A DNA stretch of 64,000 nt. Origin: Chloracidobacterium sp. N. Its GTDB lineage: Bacteria > Acidobacteriota > Blastocatellia > Chloracidobacteriales > Chloracidobacteriaceae. This document shows, in pieces, positions 4,803-60,202 of this stretch (position 1 is its first letter; each line of letters starts with the position of its first letter). Both the position numbers and the translations under genes were made by a program. The stretch covers positions 1,951,819 to 2,015,818 of the forward strand of contig NZ_CP072642.1 of the NCBI RefSeq assembly GCF_018304765.1, in the 5' to 3' direction. A model generated the notes under the pieces. It ran no database searches and was not told the origin of the DNA. It was given only the letters and a program-made list of their open reading frames with translations.

Positions 4803-5537
4803 TCAGTGTGGGGCGGCGGTCAGGCGCATCGCCGCGACGAGATTGGAGGCGAGATGCAGGCTCTCGAAAGTTCCGGCATCGGTCCACCAGCCATCGAGGA
4901 CTTCCCAGGTGAGTTCACCGCGCGCGATGTAGGCGTTGTTGACATCCGTGATTTCGAGTTCCCCCCGCTGGCTTGGCTCAAGCGTGCGGATGATGTCAAA
5001 GACGGTGGCATCATACATGTAAATGCCGGTCACGGCGTAGGGCGATGCCGGTTGCGCCGGTTTTTCATCAATGCGCACGACCTGCGATCCCTTCAGGGTG
5101 GGCACGCCAAAACGCTGCGGATCGGGAACTTCCTTGAGCAGAATCCGGGCCCCGCGCCCCTGCTCCTGAAACCGCGCGACCGGGCCGGCGATGCTTTTCT
5201 CAATCACATTGTCGCCCAATATGACGACGATGGGGCCGCCATCGGCAAAATCTTCCGCCAGCGCCAGGGCATCGGCAATGCCGCCTTCGCCCTGCTGGTA
5301 GGTGTAGCTCAACCGCTTGAGACCATGGTCCTTGCCGTTGCCCAGCAGTTGCAGAAAGTCGCCGGCCTTGTTGCCGCCCGTCACCAGCAGGACATCATCC
5401 ACACCGGCTTCAACCAGTGTCTGGATCGGGTAGTAAATCATCGGCCGGTCATAGACCGGCAGCAGGTGCTTGTTCGTCACCTTGGTCAGCGGATACAGCC
5501 GCGTCCCAAGTCCACCGGCCAGGATTACGCCCTTCAT
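4803..5537 (-). CDS. rfbA: Glucose-1-phosphate thymidylyltransferase, short form
   Basis: This makes dTDP-glucose from glucose 1-phosphate and dTTP, entry to dTDP-rhamnose. The nucleotide-binding motif [11 protein letters not shown] is at the N-terminus. [21 protein letters not shown] and the Mg/substrate motif TWWTDAGTF-like end ([12 protein letters not shown]) are all present. At 244 aa it is about 50 residues shorter than enterobacterial RmlA, so it belongs to the short class without the C-terminal regulatory extension. The ribosome site GGGGGA precedes the start. It is probably the first gene of the rfbA-rfbC-wecG-asd block. The 113 bp upstream shows no clear promoter. Confidence 0.93.
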
Positions 5538-5650
5538 GGCAAAACTTTCCCCCTGTTCAAAAAACGCTTGTATTCAAAAATGCGTGTCACAGACGGCGGA
5601 TCATGCCGCAAATACCCGGCGAAAGGAATGCCCCGAAAAACCAACCCGGA

Positions 5651-7096
5651 TTAGCCAGGTGATGCGGAGCGGTGCGGGAGCGTTACCGTGAAGGTTGTCC
5701 CCTGCCCTGGCGTGCTTTCGACGGTAATCGTGCCGCCGTGATCCAGGATGATCTGGCGCGTTACGGCCAAACCCAACCCGATGCCGGTGTCTTTGGTGGA
5801 GAAGTACGGGTCAAAGATGTGGCCCAGATCATCGGGCGCAATCCCCAACCCGCTGTCCCGCACCTGAACGGCTTGCCCGGTGGCCGTGGGTGTAATGCTC
5901 AGATGCAGTTCGCCACCGTGGGGCATGGCCTCGATGGCGTTGATGACAAGGTTCGAGAAGCACGATTTGAGCGAGTCGGCATCCGCTTCGATGGGCATCC
6001 CGCCGGTTTCATCCACACAGATCAGGGAGACCTGCTGGGCCTCGGCTTTGGAGCGAACCACGTCGAGTACGGCCGCAATCAATTCACCCAGCCGGACCGG
6101 ACGCAGTGAAAGCGTAGCCGGACGGCCAATGCGCAGCACATTCGTCACCAGCGTGTTGAGGCGCGCAATCTCGTCCTTGACGGCTGCGGTCAGCCGCTCG
6201 AAGGTGGCGTGTTCGGCCGCATCGGAAGGCGCATAGCGGGTGCGAATGTGATCCATGGTGAGGTTGATGAAGTTGAGCGGGTTGCGGATTTCGTGGGCAA
6301 TGCCGGAAGCCAGCCGGCCGACGACGGCCGCCCGTTCGGCCTGATTGAGACGTTCTTCCAGTTCCCGGACTTCGCGCAGGCGCACCACCATGGCATTGAA
6401 GCGCGCTGCCAGCAGGCCGATTTCGTCCCGTCGGTTGAGCCGCAGTTGCACCGTCAGGTCGCCAGCTTCAATCCGGCGCGTGGCTGTCACAAGATCGCCA
6501 ATCGGCTGCGTGAAGCGCCACACCAAGGCAACCGCGACAACCAACGCGACCAGGAGCGCCGCACCGGTGGCCAGCAGCCGCTGGCGCGAAGTCGTGGCAA
6601 TGGTCTCCGCCAACGTCTGGGCTGAAATCGTCACCACCACGTAGTTGCGCTCCGGCGCGCCGTCTTTGCCCAGGGCCTGAAAAGGAATGAACACCGTTCT
6701 GGCCAGACTGTTTTCTGTGGTGTTCGCCGCCAGCGGGTCGCCTTCCTGTACCAGGCTTTCATCGGTCGGGAGTGCTAGCCGCTGTCCGCGCTCCGCCCGC
6801 AGGGTGCTGTCTGTCACCAGGCCATTCGCGTCCACGATGGCAATCCGCCGGATACGCTGGAGCTGGCTGGGCGTCAGGCGGCGTGACCGGATGAAGTCGT
6901 CCAGGTAGTCGCTCGTGCTGATGCTCTGCAGGCCGACTTCCAGCGCCGTCGTCAGTTGTGCGGTCTGAACTTCGACCTGGGCCAGAATCTGGCGTTCAGC
7001 ACGGCGGTTGAGTTCATACAACACCGCCACCATGCCAATGATGACAATGGAAAGCAGGGCAGCCAGCCGAAAGCGAAGATCGAGATAACGCGGCAT
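5651..7096 (-). CDS. Sensor histidine kinase with HAMP domain
   Basis: This is a membrane sensor kinase of 481 aa. A first transmembrane segment at residues 11-27 and a second at about 176-193 bracket a ~145-aa periplasmic domain. HAMP follows at about 194-248, then HisKA with the phospho-acceptor His268 in GIAHEIRNPLN. The HATPase domain has the N box NLVINAIEAMP, G1 DSGLGIAPDD, F box FDPYFSTK and G2 GIGLGLAV. The HEIRNPL-type box resembles NtrB/ZraS-class kinases. No response regulator is adjacent: it lies 48 bp after nuoH and 113 bp before rfbA, all on the same strand. The ligand is unknown. Confidence 0.92.
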   Translation of the reverse strand: MPRYLDLRFRLAALLSIVIIGMVAVLYELNRRAERQILAQVEVQTAQLTTALEVGLQSISTSDYLDDFIRSRRLTPSQLQRIRRIAIVDANGLVTDSTLRAERGQRLALPTDESLVQEGDPLAANTTENSLARTVFIPFQALGKDGAPERNYVVVTISAQTLAETIATTSRQRLLATGAALLVALVVAVALVWRFTQPIGDLVTATRRIEAGDLTVQLRLNRRDEIGLLAARFNAMVVRLREVRELEERLNQAERAAVVGRLASGIAHEIRNPLNFINLTMDHIRTRYAPSDAAEHATFERLTAAVKDEIARLNTLVTNVLRIGRPATLSLRPVRLGELIAAVLDVVRSKAEAQQVSLICVDETGGMPIEADADSLKSCFSNLVINAIEAMPHGGELHLSITPTATGQAVQVRDSGLGIAPDDLGHIFDPYFSTKDTGIGLGLAVTRQIILDHGGTITVESTPGQGTTFTVTLPHRSASPG

Positions 7097-50038: not shown

Positions 50039-50719
50039 TCAAAATTCGCTGACCGTCGCCGAAATGATGCGGATGGGCGTCAGGGGGCGGTCCCGCATCA
50101 GCATTTCCGGGCCCTGGTAGGTTGGCGTCTCGGCAATGGCATCCACCACGTCCTGACCTTCAAACACCCGCCCGAAAATCGTGTAGGACGGCGGAAGCTG
50201 GTAATCCCGGTGCATGATGAAAAACTGGCTGCCGTTGGTGTTCGGACCGCGATTGGCCATGGCCACGATACCGGCTTTGTACCCGGCCAGATACAGCGGC
50301 GATTTGGGGTCAATTTCATCGGCAAATTCACCGCCAAAGGCAGATTCGCCGCCCGTCCCGTCACCTTTGGGATCGCCGGTCTGAATCATGAAGCCCTTGA
50401 TGACACGGTGAAACGTTATGCCATTGAAATACTTTCGCTCGGCCAGCAGACGGAAGTTTTCACAGGTTTTGGGCGCGTCCTGCGTCAGCAGTTCAAAGCG
50501 AATCCGGCCCTTGGTCGTTTCCAGGGTTGCCACCAGACGCTTGGCGGGGGTCGTCGCCGGAGGTGATGCTGGCGCAGATGGCGGCGGTGGAGGCGGAAGG
50601 GAGGGCGGTTGCGCCGGGGGCGGAGAGGTGCAGCCAGAGGCCAGAAGCACGGTCAGCACCAGTGAGAGCAGCGCCATCCGGCATTGCGCCGTGCGCTTTT
50701 GAGTGTCAGGGAATGTCAT
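50039..50719 (-). CDS. Cyclophilin-type peptidyl-prolyl isomerase (lipoprotein)
   Basis: This 226-aa cyclophilin starts at 50719. A signal sequence leads to a lipobox LASGC at about residue 30, followed by a Pro/Ser-rich linker of ~30 residues (TSPPPAQPPSLPPPPPP). The cyclophilin domain then shows YFNGITFHRVIKGFMIQTGDP, AMANRGPNTNGSQFFIM and TIFGRVFEGQDVVDAI. It is therefore a membrane-tethered periplasmic foldase candidate. It is divergent from the CHAT gene across 136 bp. Confidence 0.93.
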   Translation of the reverse strand: MTFPDTQKRTAQCRMALLSLVLTVLLASGCTSPPPAQPPSLPPPPPPSAPASPPATTPAKRLVATLETTKGRIRFELLTQDAPKTCENFRLLAERKYFNGITFHRVIKGFMIQTGDPKGDGTGGESAFGGEFADEIDPKSPLYLAGYKAGIVAMANRGPNTNGSQFFIMHRDYQLPPSYTIFGRVFEGQDVVDAIAETPTYQGPEMLMRDRPLTPIRIISATVSEF

Positions 50720-50855
50720 GGGTCGCAAAGGATGTCCTCTTTGTAAAAGGTCTGGAACGTTTCGGTGAAGCAGGTTCACCAGCCATGTATTGGCACGCTG
50801 AGTGTACCGATGCAACATGCTCTGACTCGCAGAGGGGAAAAGCCACGGAGACGGA

Positions 50856-53800
50856 ATGGCCATGACCAGCCGGCAACGTGCCAGTATCGTGACGACACCG
50901 TGGCGCTCTGTCCGGCGGGGAACCTGGCTGCTGGCCTTCGTTGTCGCCGGACTGCTGGCCTGCCGGCAACCATCTCTCACCAGCCAACCTGATGTATGGC
51001 AGAGCCTTCGGCAGTGGCCGGTGACTTCACCCCACGGATTTCGTCTTTCCGGGGCGCCAGCACCTCCCAGCGGGACGACGGCCCGCCTCGATCTGGACCA
51101 AACCACAAGGCTGACGGCCGCTGTCGCCACCGCAACGACCCTTGAACCCGCAGCCTGTACCCATGCCCTGCTCTGGCGCGACCTGGCCGCCGGAGAGATT
51201 CATCTGGCCCGTCGTCGTCTGACGTCCCCACATCCCGCCCCACACCCTGCTACGGCGGACTGGTCCAACGACGCCGCCATTGTGCAGTCCGAATGGGGAC
51301 TCCGGCACGGACGACCGGAAGACTTCGAGGCGGCGCTCAAAGCTCTCAACCATGCGCCTGCCACCCGTGACCACGCCCGGACCGCCCACTTCAACCGGGC
51401 ACTTCTGTTTCAGCACCTTGGTCTGGCACGCCGCGCGGAAGCCGAGTGGCGACACTACCTTGACGAAGAACACGACGGGGCCTGGGCCGCCGTCGCCCGG
51501 CAGCATCTGGATGACCTGACGCGGCAGCCGCCCGACCTCTCACATCTTCAGGACACACTGGCCGGACTGGTCGACAACCCGGAGACGCCCGAAGCACAGA
51601 GCTTTTTCACCCACCACCTGGGCGCATTGCTCGATGGGACAGGCGCACTGGCCGAAGCCTTTGTGACTTCCGGTGCGTCAACACGTCTCAAGCAGCTTCA
51701 CTGTCTGGCTCAGCAAACCCGGCAACGGGCCGGTGATCTGTGGGCAACCGACCTCGCCCAGGTTATTGCCAGACTCCGGGACACAGAGCAGGCGGCCCCG
51801 TGGCTGGCGGCCCGGCAGGACCTGCGCCAGGCCCGCCAACGCTATCCCATCGAGGGCCAACCCACCGCCGCCGAGCCGCTCTACGCGCGCGCGCGCCAGA
51901 CCTTTCTCGCGGTCGGTGACCTGGCCAGCGCGGCCGAAGCCGAACTGGGACTTGTTTATTGCGCCGTACAACGCCCCGAAACCGCCCCGCTTGACCGGCT
52001 AAGCGCGGCGCTGCTGTCCACGGCGCGCAGCCGGCACTATGCCCGCCTGGAAGGGCAAACCCTGCGGGTGCGCGCCCAGCTTGCCCTCCGCCAGTCCCGG
52101 CCGGCACTGGCCGTCACCCACTGCCAGTCGGCGCTGGCGACATTTCAGATGCTTTCCGACTGGGAGGAAACCCAACGCACCCTGCTCATTCTCAGTGACG
52201 CCCACGAACACCAGGGCAATGCGCCCGCCGCACTGCTGACGCTGCGACAACTGCTCCAGACCGGCCGCCAGCGGGGGACGAATCCCCGGCGGTATTCCCA
52301 GGCCTGCGCCTTTGCGGCCCGAACCTGCGCGGCAGCCGGGGCTTTTGAACTGGGCCTCGCCTTTGCTGAAGAAGCCCGCGCGGCCGCCGCCGGACAAACC
52401 TTCCCGGCCTTCCAGCTCGATGCCGAAACCCTGTTGGCGGTGTTGAACATCAAGTCCGGCCGGCTGGCAGCGGCTGCGGCTGCGCTCGACCGGGCCGCCG
52501 GGGTTCTGGAGCGGGTTGACGACCCGCGTGTGCGGCGTGTTCTTGCCCTCGACTACCTGCCGACGGCGGCCTGGTGTCGCATGGCGCTGGGAGAACCCGT
52601 GGCCGCTCTTCAGCTCTGTACGGCGGCCGCTGAAAACCTGCGCACCGGGCAGCACGATGCCTACTGGCCGCTTGTGGAATCCGTACGGAGCGCCGCCCAC
52701 CTTGCCCTTGGCAATGCCCGGTCCGCCGAAGCCGCCCTGGAAGCCGGTATCCGCTGGCTGGAAACAACGCGCCTCCGCCTGACCCAAACTCCTGACCGCC
52801 AACGCTTTTTCCACCGGCAGGCCGAGCTGTACGAACGTCTGGCCGCCCTGCGGCTGAAACGCGGCCAGGTCACGGAAGCCTTCGCATGTCTTGAACAGGC
52901 ACGGGCGCGCACCCTGCTCGACCGCCGCCGCCAGGCGACCGGAAACCCCGGCGCGTCCTCCCCGCTTCCAGCCACCGGGGCGGCTTTCATCCGGGCGTTA
53001 CAGGTGCGTTTGCCGGAGCAGGTCATCGTTCTGGCCTACGCGGTCGGGGATGAGCAGACCGAAAGTTTCGTGCTCACCCGGCGCGACCTGCGGCACACAA
53101 CGCTGGCCACCGGCGGCGCGCAACTCGCCCGCGACATCCACAGCCTGAACGGTCTTCTGACCGATGTGACGAGTGACATCTCCCACATCCGCCACATCGG
53201 ACAACAACTGTACGCCACGCTCATCGCTCCGCTGAAATGCTCATGGACGGCTTCCACGCGCCTGGTCATCATCCCGGACGGCCCACTTTACAGCCTGCCG
53301 TGGGCGGCGATCTGTGATGCTGAAGGACGGTGGCTCGCCCAGCAGGTGCCGTTCTCGATGTGCCCAAGCGTGGCAACGCTCGTCCAGGCACTGGAACAGG
53401 CACGCGAAAAGGACGCGCCGCCTGCCCGCGAGCCACCGACCGGAACGGCTCTCGTGGCGGCTGACCCGGACCTGTCCGCTGCCGCTGAAGCCCACGACCT
53501 GCCTCCGCTTTCCGGCGCACGGGATGAGCTCCTCTGCCTGCAATCCATTCTGGGGCCGGGGGTGACACTGACTGGCAGCGAGGTCACAAAAGCGCGCCTT
53601 ATGGCGGCGCTGCCCCAAACCCACCTGGCGCACCTGGCCGTTCACGGACGGGCTGAACCGGATGCACCGCTGCGGTCGGCGCTCCACCTCACGGCCACAG
53701 CAGAAGATGACGGGCAACTCACGGCCGCCGAAGTGTACGAATGTTCCTTCCCACAGCTCCGGCTGGTGGTGCTGTCGGCCTGCGAGTCGGCGCTTGGGGC

Positions 53801-54041
53801 GGCGCTGCGGGGTGAAGGCGCGACGGGCCTCGGACAGGCCTTTCTGGCGGCCGGCGCTTCGAGCGTCGTCGCCACGCTGGCCCGTACGGATGATCACTTC
53901 ATGCGTGACCTGATGTGCGCGTTTCATCGGGCGCGGCAGGCGGGAGCCAGTCCGGCCGTGGCGCTCCAGCAAGCCTGGCGCGCGGCCCCGGCCCACCATC
54001 CGGCACGGTGGGCAAATGTGGTTCTGCTTGGCGCACCGTAA
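50856..54041 (+). CDS. TPR-CHAT domain lipoprotein (caspase-like)
   Basis: This 1061-aa protein has an N-terminal signal with a likely lipobox (GLLAC), so it is probably a lipoprotein. Residues about 90-660 are TPR-like helical repeats (ALRQLLQTGRQRGTNPRRYSQACAFAARTC). The C-terminal CHAT domain has the cysteine-protease dyad His930 in HLAVHG and Cys976 in LSACESALG, followed by GEGATGLGQAFLAAGASSVVATL. All key features look intact, so proteolytic activity is plausible. A second ATG at 50862 gives almost the same protein. Exported CHAT proteins are not common (inference). Substrate unknown. Confidence 0.9.
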   Translation: MAMTSRQRASIVTTPWRSVRRGTWLLAFVVAGLLACRQPSLTSQPDVWQSLRQWPVTSPHGFRLSGAPAPPSGTTARLDLDQTTRLTAAVATATTLEPAACTHALLWRDLAAGEIHLARRRLTSPHPAPHPATADWSNDAAIVQSEWGLRHGRPEDFEAALKALNHAPATRDHARTAHFNRALLFQHLGLARRAEAEWRHYLDEEHDGAWAAVARQHLDDLTRQPPDLSHLQDTLAGLVDNPETPEAQSFFTHHLGALLDGTGALAEAFVTSGASTRLKQLHCLAQQTRQRAGDLWATDLAQVIARLRDTEQAAPWLAARQDLRQARQRYPIEGQPTAAEPLYARARQTFLAVGDLASAAEAELGLVYCAVQRPETAPLDRLSAALLSTARSRHYARLEGQTLRVRAQLALRQSRPALAVTHCQSALATFQMLSDWEETQRTLLILSDAHEHQGNAPAALLTLRQLLQTGRQRGTNPRRYSQACAFAARTCAAAGAFELGLAFAEEARAAAAGQTFPAFQLDAETLLAVLNIKSGRLAAAAAALDRAAGVLERVDDPRVRRVLALDYLPTAAWCRMALGEPVAALQLCTAAAENLRTGQHDAYWPLVESVRSAAHLALGNARSAEAALEAGIRWLETTRLRLTQTPDRQRFFHRQAELYERLAALRLKRGQVTEAFACLEQARARTLLDRRRQATGNPGASSPLPATGAAFIRALQVRLPEQVIVLAYAVGDEQTESFVLTRRDLRHTTLATGGAQLARDIHSLNGLLTDVTSDISHIRHIGQQLYATLIAPLKCSWTASTRLVIIPDGPLYSLPWAAICDAEGRWLAQQVPFSMCPSVATLVQALEQAREKDAPPAREPPTGTALVAADPDLSAAAEAHDLPPLSGARDELLCLQSILGPGVTLTGSEVTKARLMAALPQTHLAHLAVHGRAEPDAPLRSALHLTATAEDDGQLTAAEVYECSFPQLRLVVLSACESALGAALRGEGATGLGQAFLAAGASSVVATLARTDDHFMRDLMCAFHRARQAGASPAVALQQAWRAAPAHHPARWANVVLLGAP

Positions 54042-54145
54042 TTTTTCGGACTTACCAAGCCACGGCAGCGCAATGTAGCTTGGAAGCGGGTTCCTCCTCC
54101 GAACGGCGTCCCTGCCATTTCTCATCTTTTGCAGGTGAGGCGAGT

Positions 54146-54514
54146 ATGTCCTTTCCCATCAATGTTCAGGTCGAAAATCCTGTCAACGATCCCCTCCGCA
54201 TTGAAACCTGTACGGCTGAAGTGGCCGACAATGGCGACATCACGATCAGCGGCGAGGTCGTCCACACCGGCGATGACGGCGTGCGGCGCTACAATCCGTC
54301 GCTTCTGTTTACGGTTCTGGACAAGTACAACGTGCCTATCGGCAGCGGCCGCACCATGGCCGGCGGTGAGTTTCTTGTGCCGGGGCAGCGGGCCTACTTT
54401 GTCGGGACGGTGCCACGGATTGGCCAGTCGGCGCGGTTTGGCAAGGTTGTCGTCAGTGCCATTCCCAACAGCGGCTTCCGGGAAAACAAAAAGCGGGGCA
54501 AGGCGGCCAGCTAA
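54146..54514 (+). CDS. Small hypothetical protein
   Basis: This 122-aa protein starts at ATG 54146, with GAGG 6 nt upstream. It has alternating beta-strand patterns (FPINVQVENPVNDPLRIETC, ITISGEVVHTGDD, SLLFTVLDKYNVPIGS, KVVVSAIPNSGF) and ends with a basic tail. It is compatible with an Ig-like or cupredoxin-like fold, but nothing decisive is seen. It follows the CHAT gene by 104 bp and converges with gyrB. Confidence 0.65.
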   Translation: MSFPINVQVENPVNDPLRIETCTAEVADNGDITISGEVVHTGDDGVRRYNPSLLFTVLDKYNVPIGSGRTMAGGEFLVPGQRAYFVGTVPRIGQSARFGKVVVSAIPNSGFRENKKRGKAAS

Positions 54515-58205: not shown

Positions 58206-58241
58206 TTCCTGCTCAAGCAGGAACAAAGCTGACTTCCTGCT
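58206..58241 (-). ncRNA. omegaRNA-like 3' structure overlapping the tnpB end
   Basis: On the minus strand AGCAGGAA (58241-58234), TTCCTGCT (58223-58216) and AGCAGGAA (58213-58206) follow one another. The middle block can pair with either outer copy in 8-bp stems, so the hairpins are mutually exclusive. TnpB-associated omegaRNAs are known to overlap the 3' end of tnpB, and the position fits. Expression is not shown. Confidence 0.5.
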
Positions 58242-59406
58242 TCGTTGAGGCCGGTTTCACGACCGCCTTGCGGCTGCCGCCAGAGCCTTCCTCTCCACAG
58301 GCTGACACCGTGGAACTCACGGCGTATCGGGCAAGATTCCGCGCCGCATTCACATCCCGGTCGTGCGAAGCGCCACAAGCCGGACACAGCCACCGGCGTA
58401 CAGCCATTGGCAGTACCTCCAGCTTATGTCCGCAAGCCGAACACGTCCGGCTGCTCGCAAAGAAGCGGTCGGCAGCCACCACCAGCCCGCCACGCCTTGC
58501 CGCCTTGTACTCCAGTTGCCGCCGGAACTCACCCCACCCCATGTCGGCAATGGAGCGGGCCAGTCGCCGGTTGGCCAGCATGCCGCGCACATTCAGGTCT
58601 TCAATGACAATGGTATGAAACCGGCGTGGAAGCTCGCTCGTGAGCTTGTGCAGGGCATCCTGCCGGATGTTGGCTATCCGCGCATGCAGCCGTGCCAGCT
58701 TCCGGCGGGCCCGGACGCGGTTGCGCGATCCCTTCTGCTTTCTGGACAGACTTCGCGACAGCCGGCGCAGGCGCCTGAGCAGGGCAGTGTGTGGTTTGGG
58801 CCCGGCAATTGTTTCTCCCGTCGAGAGCGTCGCCAGCGCCGTCACACCCACATCCACCCCCACCACGCCTTGGTTCTCGGCGGGGCGTCTGGGCGGATCG
58901 TCGGTGTCAACGGTGATGCTGACAAACCAGCGGTCGGCTGTGCGGGAGACCGTGGCTGACATGACCTTGCCGGAAAAGCGCAACGGCTCGCGCATCCGCA
59001 CCCAGCCCAACTTCGGAATGCGAATGCGTAAGCCCCTGACGTTCACCTGGTCATTCGTAATCGTGAAACGATCATCCACGCCCTTTCTGCGAAACTTCGG
59101 ATACCGGGCGCGACCATCAAAGAAATTCTCGAACGCCTGCCCCAACTGGATGATGGCCATCTGCGGGGCACACTTGGTGACCTTCAGCATCCAGGGGAAC
59201 TGTTCGCGCTTGATGGCGTTGAGTTGGCGGCGCAGGGCCGCCTCGGACGGCCTGGGCCGGCGGTTGTCAGCCTTCCATGCCGCATACTGCTGTTGCCACT
59301 GGTCCAGCGCCCAGTTCCAGGCAAAGCGGGCCGTGCCGGCCGCGCGGGCCAGCCAGGTGGCCTGCCGGTTGTTCGGATCAAGCGCAATCCGATGGGCCGT
59401 CAACAT
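58213..59406 (-). CDS. tnpB: TnpB RNA-guided endonuclease (IS607 type)
   Basis: TnpB is the ancestor-type RNA-guided nuclease of IS200/605 and IS607 elements. The 397-aa protein has the N-terminal REC/wedge region (AWNWALDQWQQQYAAW), then a RuvC fold with the catalytic triad Asp185 (GVDVGVTALA), Glu269 (VIEDLNVRG) and Asp351 (HDRDVNAARN). A zinc ribbon is formed by C322, C325, C341 and C344. All active-site residues are present, so it should be catalytically competent. Its start overlaps the tnpA stop by 7 bp. It lies 72 bp before the zinc-ribbon protein at 57181. Confidence 0.94.
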   Translation of the reverse strand: MLTAHRIALDPNNRQATWLARAAGTARFAWNWALDQWQQQYAAWKADNRRPRPSEAALRRQLNAIKREQFPWMLKVTKCAPQMAIIQLGQAFENFFDGRARYPKFRRKGVDDRFTITNDQVNVRGLRIRIPKLGWVRMREPLRFSGKVMSATVSRTADRWFVSITVDTDDPPRRPAENQGVVGVDVGVTALATLSTGETIAGPKPHTALLRRLRRLSRSLSRKQKGSRNRVRARRKLARLHARIANIRQDALHKLTSELPRRFHTIVIEDLNVRGMLANRRLARSIADMGWGEFRRQLEYKAARRGGLVVAADRFFASSRTCSACGHKLEVLPMAVRRWLCPACGASHDRDVNAARNLARYAVSSTVSACGEEGSGGSRKAVVKPASTKQEVSFVPA

Positions 59407-60032
59407 ACCTGTGCCTCGGCGACGTCCTGCTTCACGCCGTCAACAAGTTTCCGGTTCCGGTGTGACCGGCTGCCATAAAGCCGGGCACTGAAGATGGTGC
59501 TGATCTTCAGCACGTCTTTCGCCAGGTCTTCCTCAAACGTCGTGTCCTCGCCCTGGTTGAGCATCACCACTTCAACGTTTTTGGCCTCGCCAATGGCAAA
59601 CACCAGTTCGGCACCGAAACGGAGCAGCCGGTCCTTGTGCGTGATGACCAGCCGCCCGGCTTCTCCGGCCAGGATGGACTCCAGCCAACACCTCAGTCCT
59701 TTCTTGTGGTCGTTCATGCCGGAACCAGGGCCGGCAATGATCCCGAACGTCCAGCCCGGTTGGGCGCAGTACAGTTCAGGAACCTGCTTTTGCCGCTCCA
59801 GCTCGTCTTTCTGGTCATGACTGGAAACACGGGCGTCAGCGATGGTGCGCCGCGCCGTTTCCCGGCCGCGGAACGACGCGGGACACAGCCGGGTCAGGTC
59901 ATACCGCCGGTGCCCACCCGGCGTGCGTTCGTCGGGCAAAAGCCACCCCTCGCGTTCCCAGCGGCGCAGGGTCTGAGCTGAAACACCCAGGAACCCGGCC
60001 GCTTTGTGGATACTGACCATCCGGCGTGACAT
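59400..60032 (-). CDS. tnpA: IS607-type serine transposase TnpA
   Basis: This 210-aa serine-recombinase transposase has an N-terminal MerR-like helix-turn-helix (MVSIHKAAGFLGVSAQTLRRWEREGWLLPDERTPGGHRRY), typical of IS607. The catalytic domain follows: TIADARVSSHDQKDELERQKQ with the nucleophilic Ser, then LVITHKDRLLRFG and IFSARLYGSRSHRNRKL. Start at 60032 (MSRRMVSI) is chosen by protein context; no strong ribosome site is seen, and 60020 is also possible. It is divergent from ubiX. Confidence 0.93.
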   Translation of the reverse strand: MSRRMVSIHKAAGFLGVSAQTLRRWEREGWLLPDERTPGGHRRYDLTRLCPASFRGRETARRTIADARVSSHDQKDELERQKQVPELYCAQPGWTFGIIAGPGSGMNDHKKGLRCWLESILAGEAGRLVITHKDRLLRFGAELVFAIGEAKNVEVVMLNQGEDTTFEEDLAKDVLKISTIFSARLYGSRSHRNRKLVDGVKQDVAEAQVC

Positions 60033-60202
60033 ATCAAATTGTAGATAAATAAGCATAAATGTGCAACTACTGCGTCGGCAGTAAAAGCCCTTGCAGTTTA
60101 CCACTTCCACAGCAATGATGGCGCTGGAGTTACCTGTCCGGCCCGGACCGTGTCTGCCCCGGAAACCCGGACAACTTTACGGCTCCGTGAGTCGCAGTTT
60201 TC

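Follow-up and report, generated by a model that had tools for sequence, protein, structure and literature searches.

DdvA of Myxococcus xanthus combines an anti-sigma factor with a periplasmic domain that, in a 2024 Science Advances paper, is reportedly separase/craspase-like and carries an incomplete active site facing the dimer interface. The same paper is said to propose that DdvA undergoes autoproteolysis in trans before RseP. The titles of PDB entries 8rot and 8rw5 name their protein as the transmembrane anti-sigma factor DdvA. DdvS becomes active once DdvA is inactivated (PMC4374960), and it has under its control a defence island in which CBASS-type systems and a type III-B CRISPR are found (PMC12288465).

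The locus compared here lies in a 64,000-nucleotide stretch of Chloracidobacterium sp. N (contig NZ_CP072642.1, positions 1,951,819 to 2,015,818), which we refer to as the window. Chloracidobacterium is a hot-spring-type bacterium, and the genome comprises two contigs (3.7 Mb). The window encodes a protein with TPR and CHAT domains that we predict to be a lipoprotein, and we propose that it is a free-standing version of the DdvA-type periplasmic module.

Results

A core gene with an intact CHAT dyad

The open reading frame at 50856-54041 (+) was verified at exactly the coordinates given in an earlier note on this DNA, and encodes 1061 residues from M1. Translation probably starts at M3 (ATG at 50862) rather than M1, because M3 is conserved in the nearest relative, where the M1 codon is ATA. 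An orthologue was found at the same locus in 7/7 genus genomes, covering every species examined, making this a core gene.

Pfam assigns residues 781-1059 (53196-54032, +) to the CHAT caspase-like domain PF12770 with E 2.8e-56 and a score of 191.6 bits (cut-off 24). Upstream, weak Pfam TPR matches and AlphaFold2 helical repeats (pLDDT mostly 70-94) delimit an approximate TPR superhelix at 51093-52940 (+) with a fold like that of LGN and DdvA. The predicted catalytic residues are His930 (HLAVHG; 53643-53645, +) and Cys976 (LSACES; 53781-53783, +), numbered from M1 as in the earlier note and equivalent to H928/C974 from M3. Both stand in canonical CHAT context and are invariant in all 17 aligned sequences (seven genus orthologues and ten class relatives), bearing out the original description of an intact dyad. 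Eight further cysteines (A1 columns 367, 482, 489, 572, 586, 834, 892 and 1019) are also invariant within the genus and may form disulfides.

A diverged leader with an invariant lipobox cysteine

The N-terminus has the features of a type II signal peptide (50862-50960, +), with an n-region, a hydrophobic stretch and the lipobox GLLA, followed by Cys36 (50961-50963, +), the predicted +1 residue of the mature lipoprotein. Leaders in the genus have diverged extensively: only ~3 of ~36 positions are invariant, and across the first 38 columns the two nearest species differ by 12 non-synonymous versus 6 synonymous codon changes. Nonetheless, Cys36 and a hydrophobic run before it are retained in 7/7 genomes. 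Cys36 is followed by R, Q or P in the orthologues, and in no case by D.

An old lipobox pattern of the PROSITE style matched at the conserved cysteine in five orthologues (G000, G002, G003, G004 and G006), with a chance of 0.4-1.0% each as estimated from shuffled leaders. The leaders of G006 (MASRWLAAVFLLMATVTAC) and G004 (MDGFRLLLAPMLLLTLAAC) are textbook lipoprotein starts. The first match in G005 falls on the earlier cysteine of a FLACFLAC repeat (7% chance), and G001 has LPAC, which fails the pattern because of the proline at -2. No start codon downstream of the lipobox cysteine is common to all orthologues in the seven genus genomes. The G005 orthologue (L007, ~1261-1500) lacks an in-frame ATG, GTG or TTG near the leader, and the conserved ATGCAA start lies there in another frame; this is possibly due to an indel or an unusual start.

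Invariance of the lipobox cysteine in an otherwise diverging leader gives good sequence support for a location outside the cytoplasm with a lipid anchor, in agreement with the initial proposal of an exported protein with a lipobox-like LLAC. Hydropathy analysis of the window protein detected no transmembrane helix (no 19-residue segment with a value of at least 1.6). Neither was a cytoplasmic anti-sigma domain present in any of the seven genus proteins (0/7), as the mature protein would start at the lipobox.

Similarity to DdvA

A search of the PDB with profile A2 matched 8rot ("CHAT domain-containing protein") with E 7.9e-27 over three collinear stretches, namely anchor plus linker, TPR, and CHAT with the His and Cys. 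AlphaFold models of the full-length protein and of the CHAT domain alone were built from four sequences. The full-length model has a mean pLDDT of 66.6, with a good TPR part and a poor CHAT part (largely below pLDDT 50); active-site geometry was therefore not taken from the models. DdvA was the top match of the full-length model in both Foldseek (E 1.3e-9) and VIA-align (Z 22.4, 567 residues, rmsd 7.1), and the next VIA-align rows were LGN TPRs at Z ~20 that cover the TPR part only. By profile and VIA-align together, the window protein has a TPR-CHAT module laid out like the periplasmic module of DdvA.

For the CHAT-only model, which is of low confidence, the first eleven structural matches were Csx29, and a profile also pointed to this protein. 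A phmmer search of the PDB with the C-terminal 346 residues returned no match. Assignment to Csx29 itself was rejected, as NCBIfam NF041237 scored 17.1 bits against a cut-off of 300 and there is no CRISPR at the locus.

Relatives with a different anchor

Searching the genome contigs with profile A1 gave matches within the genus only, and profile A2, that of the relatives, contained no segment of sufficient conservation for such a scan. The best full-length matches outside the genus are Blastocatellia proteins of the TM-TPR-CHAT or ASD-TM-TPR-CHAT type (ASD, anti-sigma-like domain; TM, transmembrane helix), with 21-26% identity in alignment A2. Some have a single N-terminal membrane helix (L012, L014, L017), and others carry an additional domain of ~100 residues before the helix (L013, L015, L016, L018, L019, L020, L023). 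These helices take up the alignment columns of the lipobox region, and a post-helix segment found in many relatives, R-x-x-E-x-R-[IL]-[ST]-G, aligns with SPHGFRLSG of the window protein. The Pfam family zf-HC2, the usual zinc anti-sigma domain, falls just below the cut-off in the N-termini of two relatives and is clear in a CHAT-less neighbour at L052. There (4809-6612), three genes encode a sigma factor, a zf-HC2-TM-TPR protein without CHAT and a TM-TPR-CHAT protein, as if the anti-sigma and CHAT parts had been split. At a further locus (L050, 4393-5661), a C39-like peptidase gene lies near an anti-sigma-TM-TPR-CHAT gene, with a gene for an unknown protein of ~290 aa between them.

A maximum-likelihood tree of 84 CHAT domains grouped the lipoprotein and TM/ASD types apart from CHAT proteins with Sec signal peptides (support 96/85). 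As the branch leading to the lipoprotein clade is long (1.83), the placement of this clade is to be read with caution.

The earlier note had regarded export as unusual on the grounds that known CHAT proteases are cytoplasmic. This premise does not hold in Blastocatellia, where export is the rule. In this genome a signal peptide or membrane anchor is present on each of the four CHAT proteins, the three besides the window protein having Sec-type signal peptides. Four further genomes of the genus and five of the class supplied 69 related CHAT genes, of which 64 encode a signal peptide or membrane anchor by hydropathy and manual reading of the N-termini rather than SignalP, and five do not (L113, L120, L124, L131, L132). 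One protein, L116, has a possible lipobox. With periplasmic TPR-CHAT proteins common in the class and one such structure solved, that of DdvA (8rot/8rw5), the surprise is weakened.

A sigma-factor family linked to CHAT genes in the class

Several of the CHAT relatives are adjoined by a gene of ~200 aa with weak matches to sigma-70 regions; its NCBIfam sigma-70 ECF matches are below cut-off. These genes form a divergent Blastocatellia sigma family (L043-L052; alignment A3), and 20 of its 26 members in five class genomes have a same-strand CHAT gene no more than 5 kb away, where ~0.5 would be expected. Members of this family often stand beside an anti-sigma-TM-TPR-CHAT gene, and NCBIfam gave one weak match, to the sigma factor of type III-E CRISPR.

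The family is absent from the genus, in which only generic ECF matches were obtained (E 2e-5 or weaker), and no sigma or anti-sigma gene is linked to the TPR-CHAT locus. The genome does keep a separate, ordinary ECF gene at a site not linked to the TPR-CHAT gene (G000:C2, ~45.2-46.5 kb); the gene after it encodes a zf-HC2 protein that has a single hydrophobic helix. This pair of ECF factor and zf-HC2-TM anti-sigma protein could be a target of the TPR-CHAT protein.

A syntenic locus with a divergent lipoprotein cyclophilin

Gene order is kept in the genus wherever contigs reach: ABC transporter, cyclophilin, lipoprotein cyclophilin, the divergent CHAT gene, a small protein and gyrB. The window additionally has a tRNA-Arg, placed between the transporter and the cyclophilin. 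The neighbour reported previously as a lipoprotein cyclophilin was confirmed as such: the divergent gene at 50039-50719 (-) matches PF00160 and has the lipobox LASGC, which, like the synteny, is kept across the genus, although it is less canonical in L041. The small protein (54144-54514, +) follows the CHAT gene in 7/7 genomes and has no Pfam or NCBIfam match.

Between the two divergent lipoprotein genes lies a conserved element, TGTATTGGCACG-N12-ATGCAA (50786-50815, +). All seven genus genomes have its core, TATTGGCACG, whatever the reading frame, and six have the ATGCAA part; this genome has a single exact copy. We regard the element as a putative regulatory site, either a promoter or an operator. 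It resembles a sigma-54 -24 element, but this assignment was rejected because the -12 GC is at the wrong distance, as was a coding uORF because the frame of the box differs among genomes. Farther downstream, at 58213-60110, TnpB-like and MerR/serine-resolvase-like ORFs (IS607-type by eye) are absent between the corresponding neighbours in G001, and this is a recent insertion.

Discussion

We propose that the window protein is a TPR-CHAT protein held by lipid outside the cytoplasm, in effect the DdvA-type periplasmic module in free-standing form, and put the probability of this reading at roughly 60%. It probably serves envelope signalling, as a caspase-like protease or as a sensor. Because the anti-sigma domain, the helix and the sigma gene were each looked for and found absent, we class it as a DdvA-type TPR-CHAT protein and not as a DdvA-type anti-sigma factor. 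The eight additional invariant cysteines would need explaining in the periplasm and count against this reading, as do the LPAC of G001, the lack of an ordinary start codon in G005, the long branch of the lipoprotein clade, the absence of a linked sigma or anti-sigma gene and the reportedly incomplete site of DdvA.

Following Sec export and lipidation at Cys36, the protein would be placed at the periplasmic face of a membrane. The TPR superhelix may bind a signal or a partner and thereby order the His930/Cys976 site, upon which the CHAT domain would relay an envelope signal by cleaving a partner; this could be an anti-sigma factor of the transmembrane type or some other envelope protein. Since it lacks the anti-sigma part, and the corresponding sigma factor is missing too, the protein would have to act in trans. 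In a specific form of this model, the lipid-anchored caspase-like protein is a site-1-type protease whose substrate in trans is a transmembrane anti-sigma factor, such that the sensor is split into separate protease and anti-sigma proteins; we offer this form tentatively and regard it as rather unlikely.

Several other explanations were weighed against this proposal. That the protein is cytoplasmic, with an N-terminus that merely resembles a signal peptide, appears extremely improbable: the LPAC of G001 and the lack of an ordinary start codon in G005 speak for it, but the cysteine and hydrophobic stretch are retained in all seven genomes despite diverged leaders, two orthologues have textbook lipoprotein starts, and the membrane helices of the relatives occupy the corresponding position. 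It is more conceivable, if doubtful, that the protein is a catalytically silent sensor or scaffold, its CHAT fold being kept for signal binding and dimer contacts rather than for cleavage. DdvA, to which it is structurally closest, is an anti-sigma factor of the sensor type, and the reportedly incomplete active site of DdvA would favour such a role; against this, neither the His nor the Cys varies across widely diverged sequences, while the surrounding CHAT sequence changes freely.

The role suggested in the earlier note was envelope quality control or defence. An envelope quality-control protease working with the lipoprotein cyclophilin is possible, given that the two lipoproteins are divergent neighbours across the genus and share the conserved intergenic element. 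However, the link between them is one of neighbourhood, the genes are transcribed divergently, linkage may be passive because synteny extends over the entire locus, gyrB included, and no such cyclophilin pairing was seen near the relatives examined; we consider it unlikely. The defence part of the suggestion was not borne out. A component of anti-phage defence, acting as the extracytoplasmic trigger of a defence programme in the manner in which DdvA and DdvS control the CBASS and type III-B CRISPR island of Myxococcus, would be in keeping with the association of DdvS with that island (PMC12288465) and with the two cas1 loci of this genome. Yet a PADLOC profile search of the window protein gave no match at 0.01, no sigma factor is linked, and the gene lies in a housekeeping locus that is core and syntenic, whereas both cas1 genes are on the other replicon, making this reading very unlikely. 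The statement that no CRISPR lies nearby was right for the window, with no arrays at 40-64 kb, and on these grounds a defence island at the locus was rejected.

Taken together, the free-standing DdvA-type module that we favour implies that the anchor has been exchanged, a helix with or without an anti-sigma domain in the relatives and a lipid here, with the TPR-CHAT module and its dyad retained. Exchange of the anchor with the dyad kept suggests that the role of the CHAT domain is separable from that of the anti-sigma domain. More broadly, Blastocatellia are rich in extracytoplasmic CHAT proteins, which are linked there to a single family of sigma factors, so that the question of CHAT cleavage in the periplasm becomes directly testable.

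Among described systems, separase resembles the window protein in having a helical superhelix followed by a caspase-like domain and is found among the fold matches of the full-length model, although it is eukaryotic and intracellular and its overall superposition is poor. Csx29, the TPR-CHAT protein of Craspase in type III-E CRISPR, provides the best match to the CHAT-only model and a weak sequence match over the catalytic part, but is cytoplasmic and bound to Cas7-11, whereas the window protein has no CRISPR near it. Closer are the Blastocatellia TM-TPR-CHAT and ASD-TM-TPR-CHAT proteins (L012-L020, L023), which share full-length homology (21-26% identity), the invariant dyad and a group in the tree, and differ in their helix anchor and, often, an N-terminal anti-sigma-like domain and an adjacent sigma-like gene. 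Finally, DdvA has the same parts in the same order: a membrane anchor, a linker region with "RxLEARxxx", a TPR superhelix and a CHAT domain with His and Cys. In contrast to DdvA, the window protein has a lipobox in place of the cytoplasmic zinc-binding anti-sigma domain and transmembrane helix, and no linked sigma gene. It thus appears to be an anchor variant within a recently described signalling family rather than an isolated oddity.
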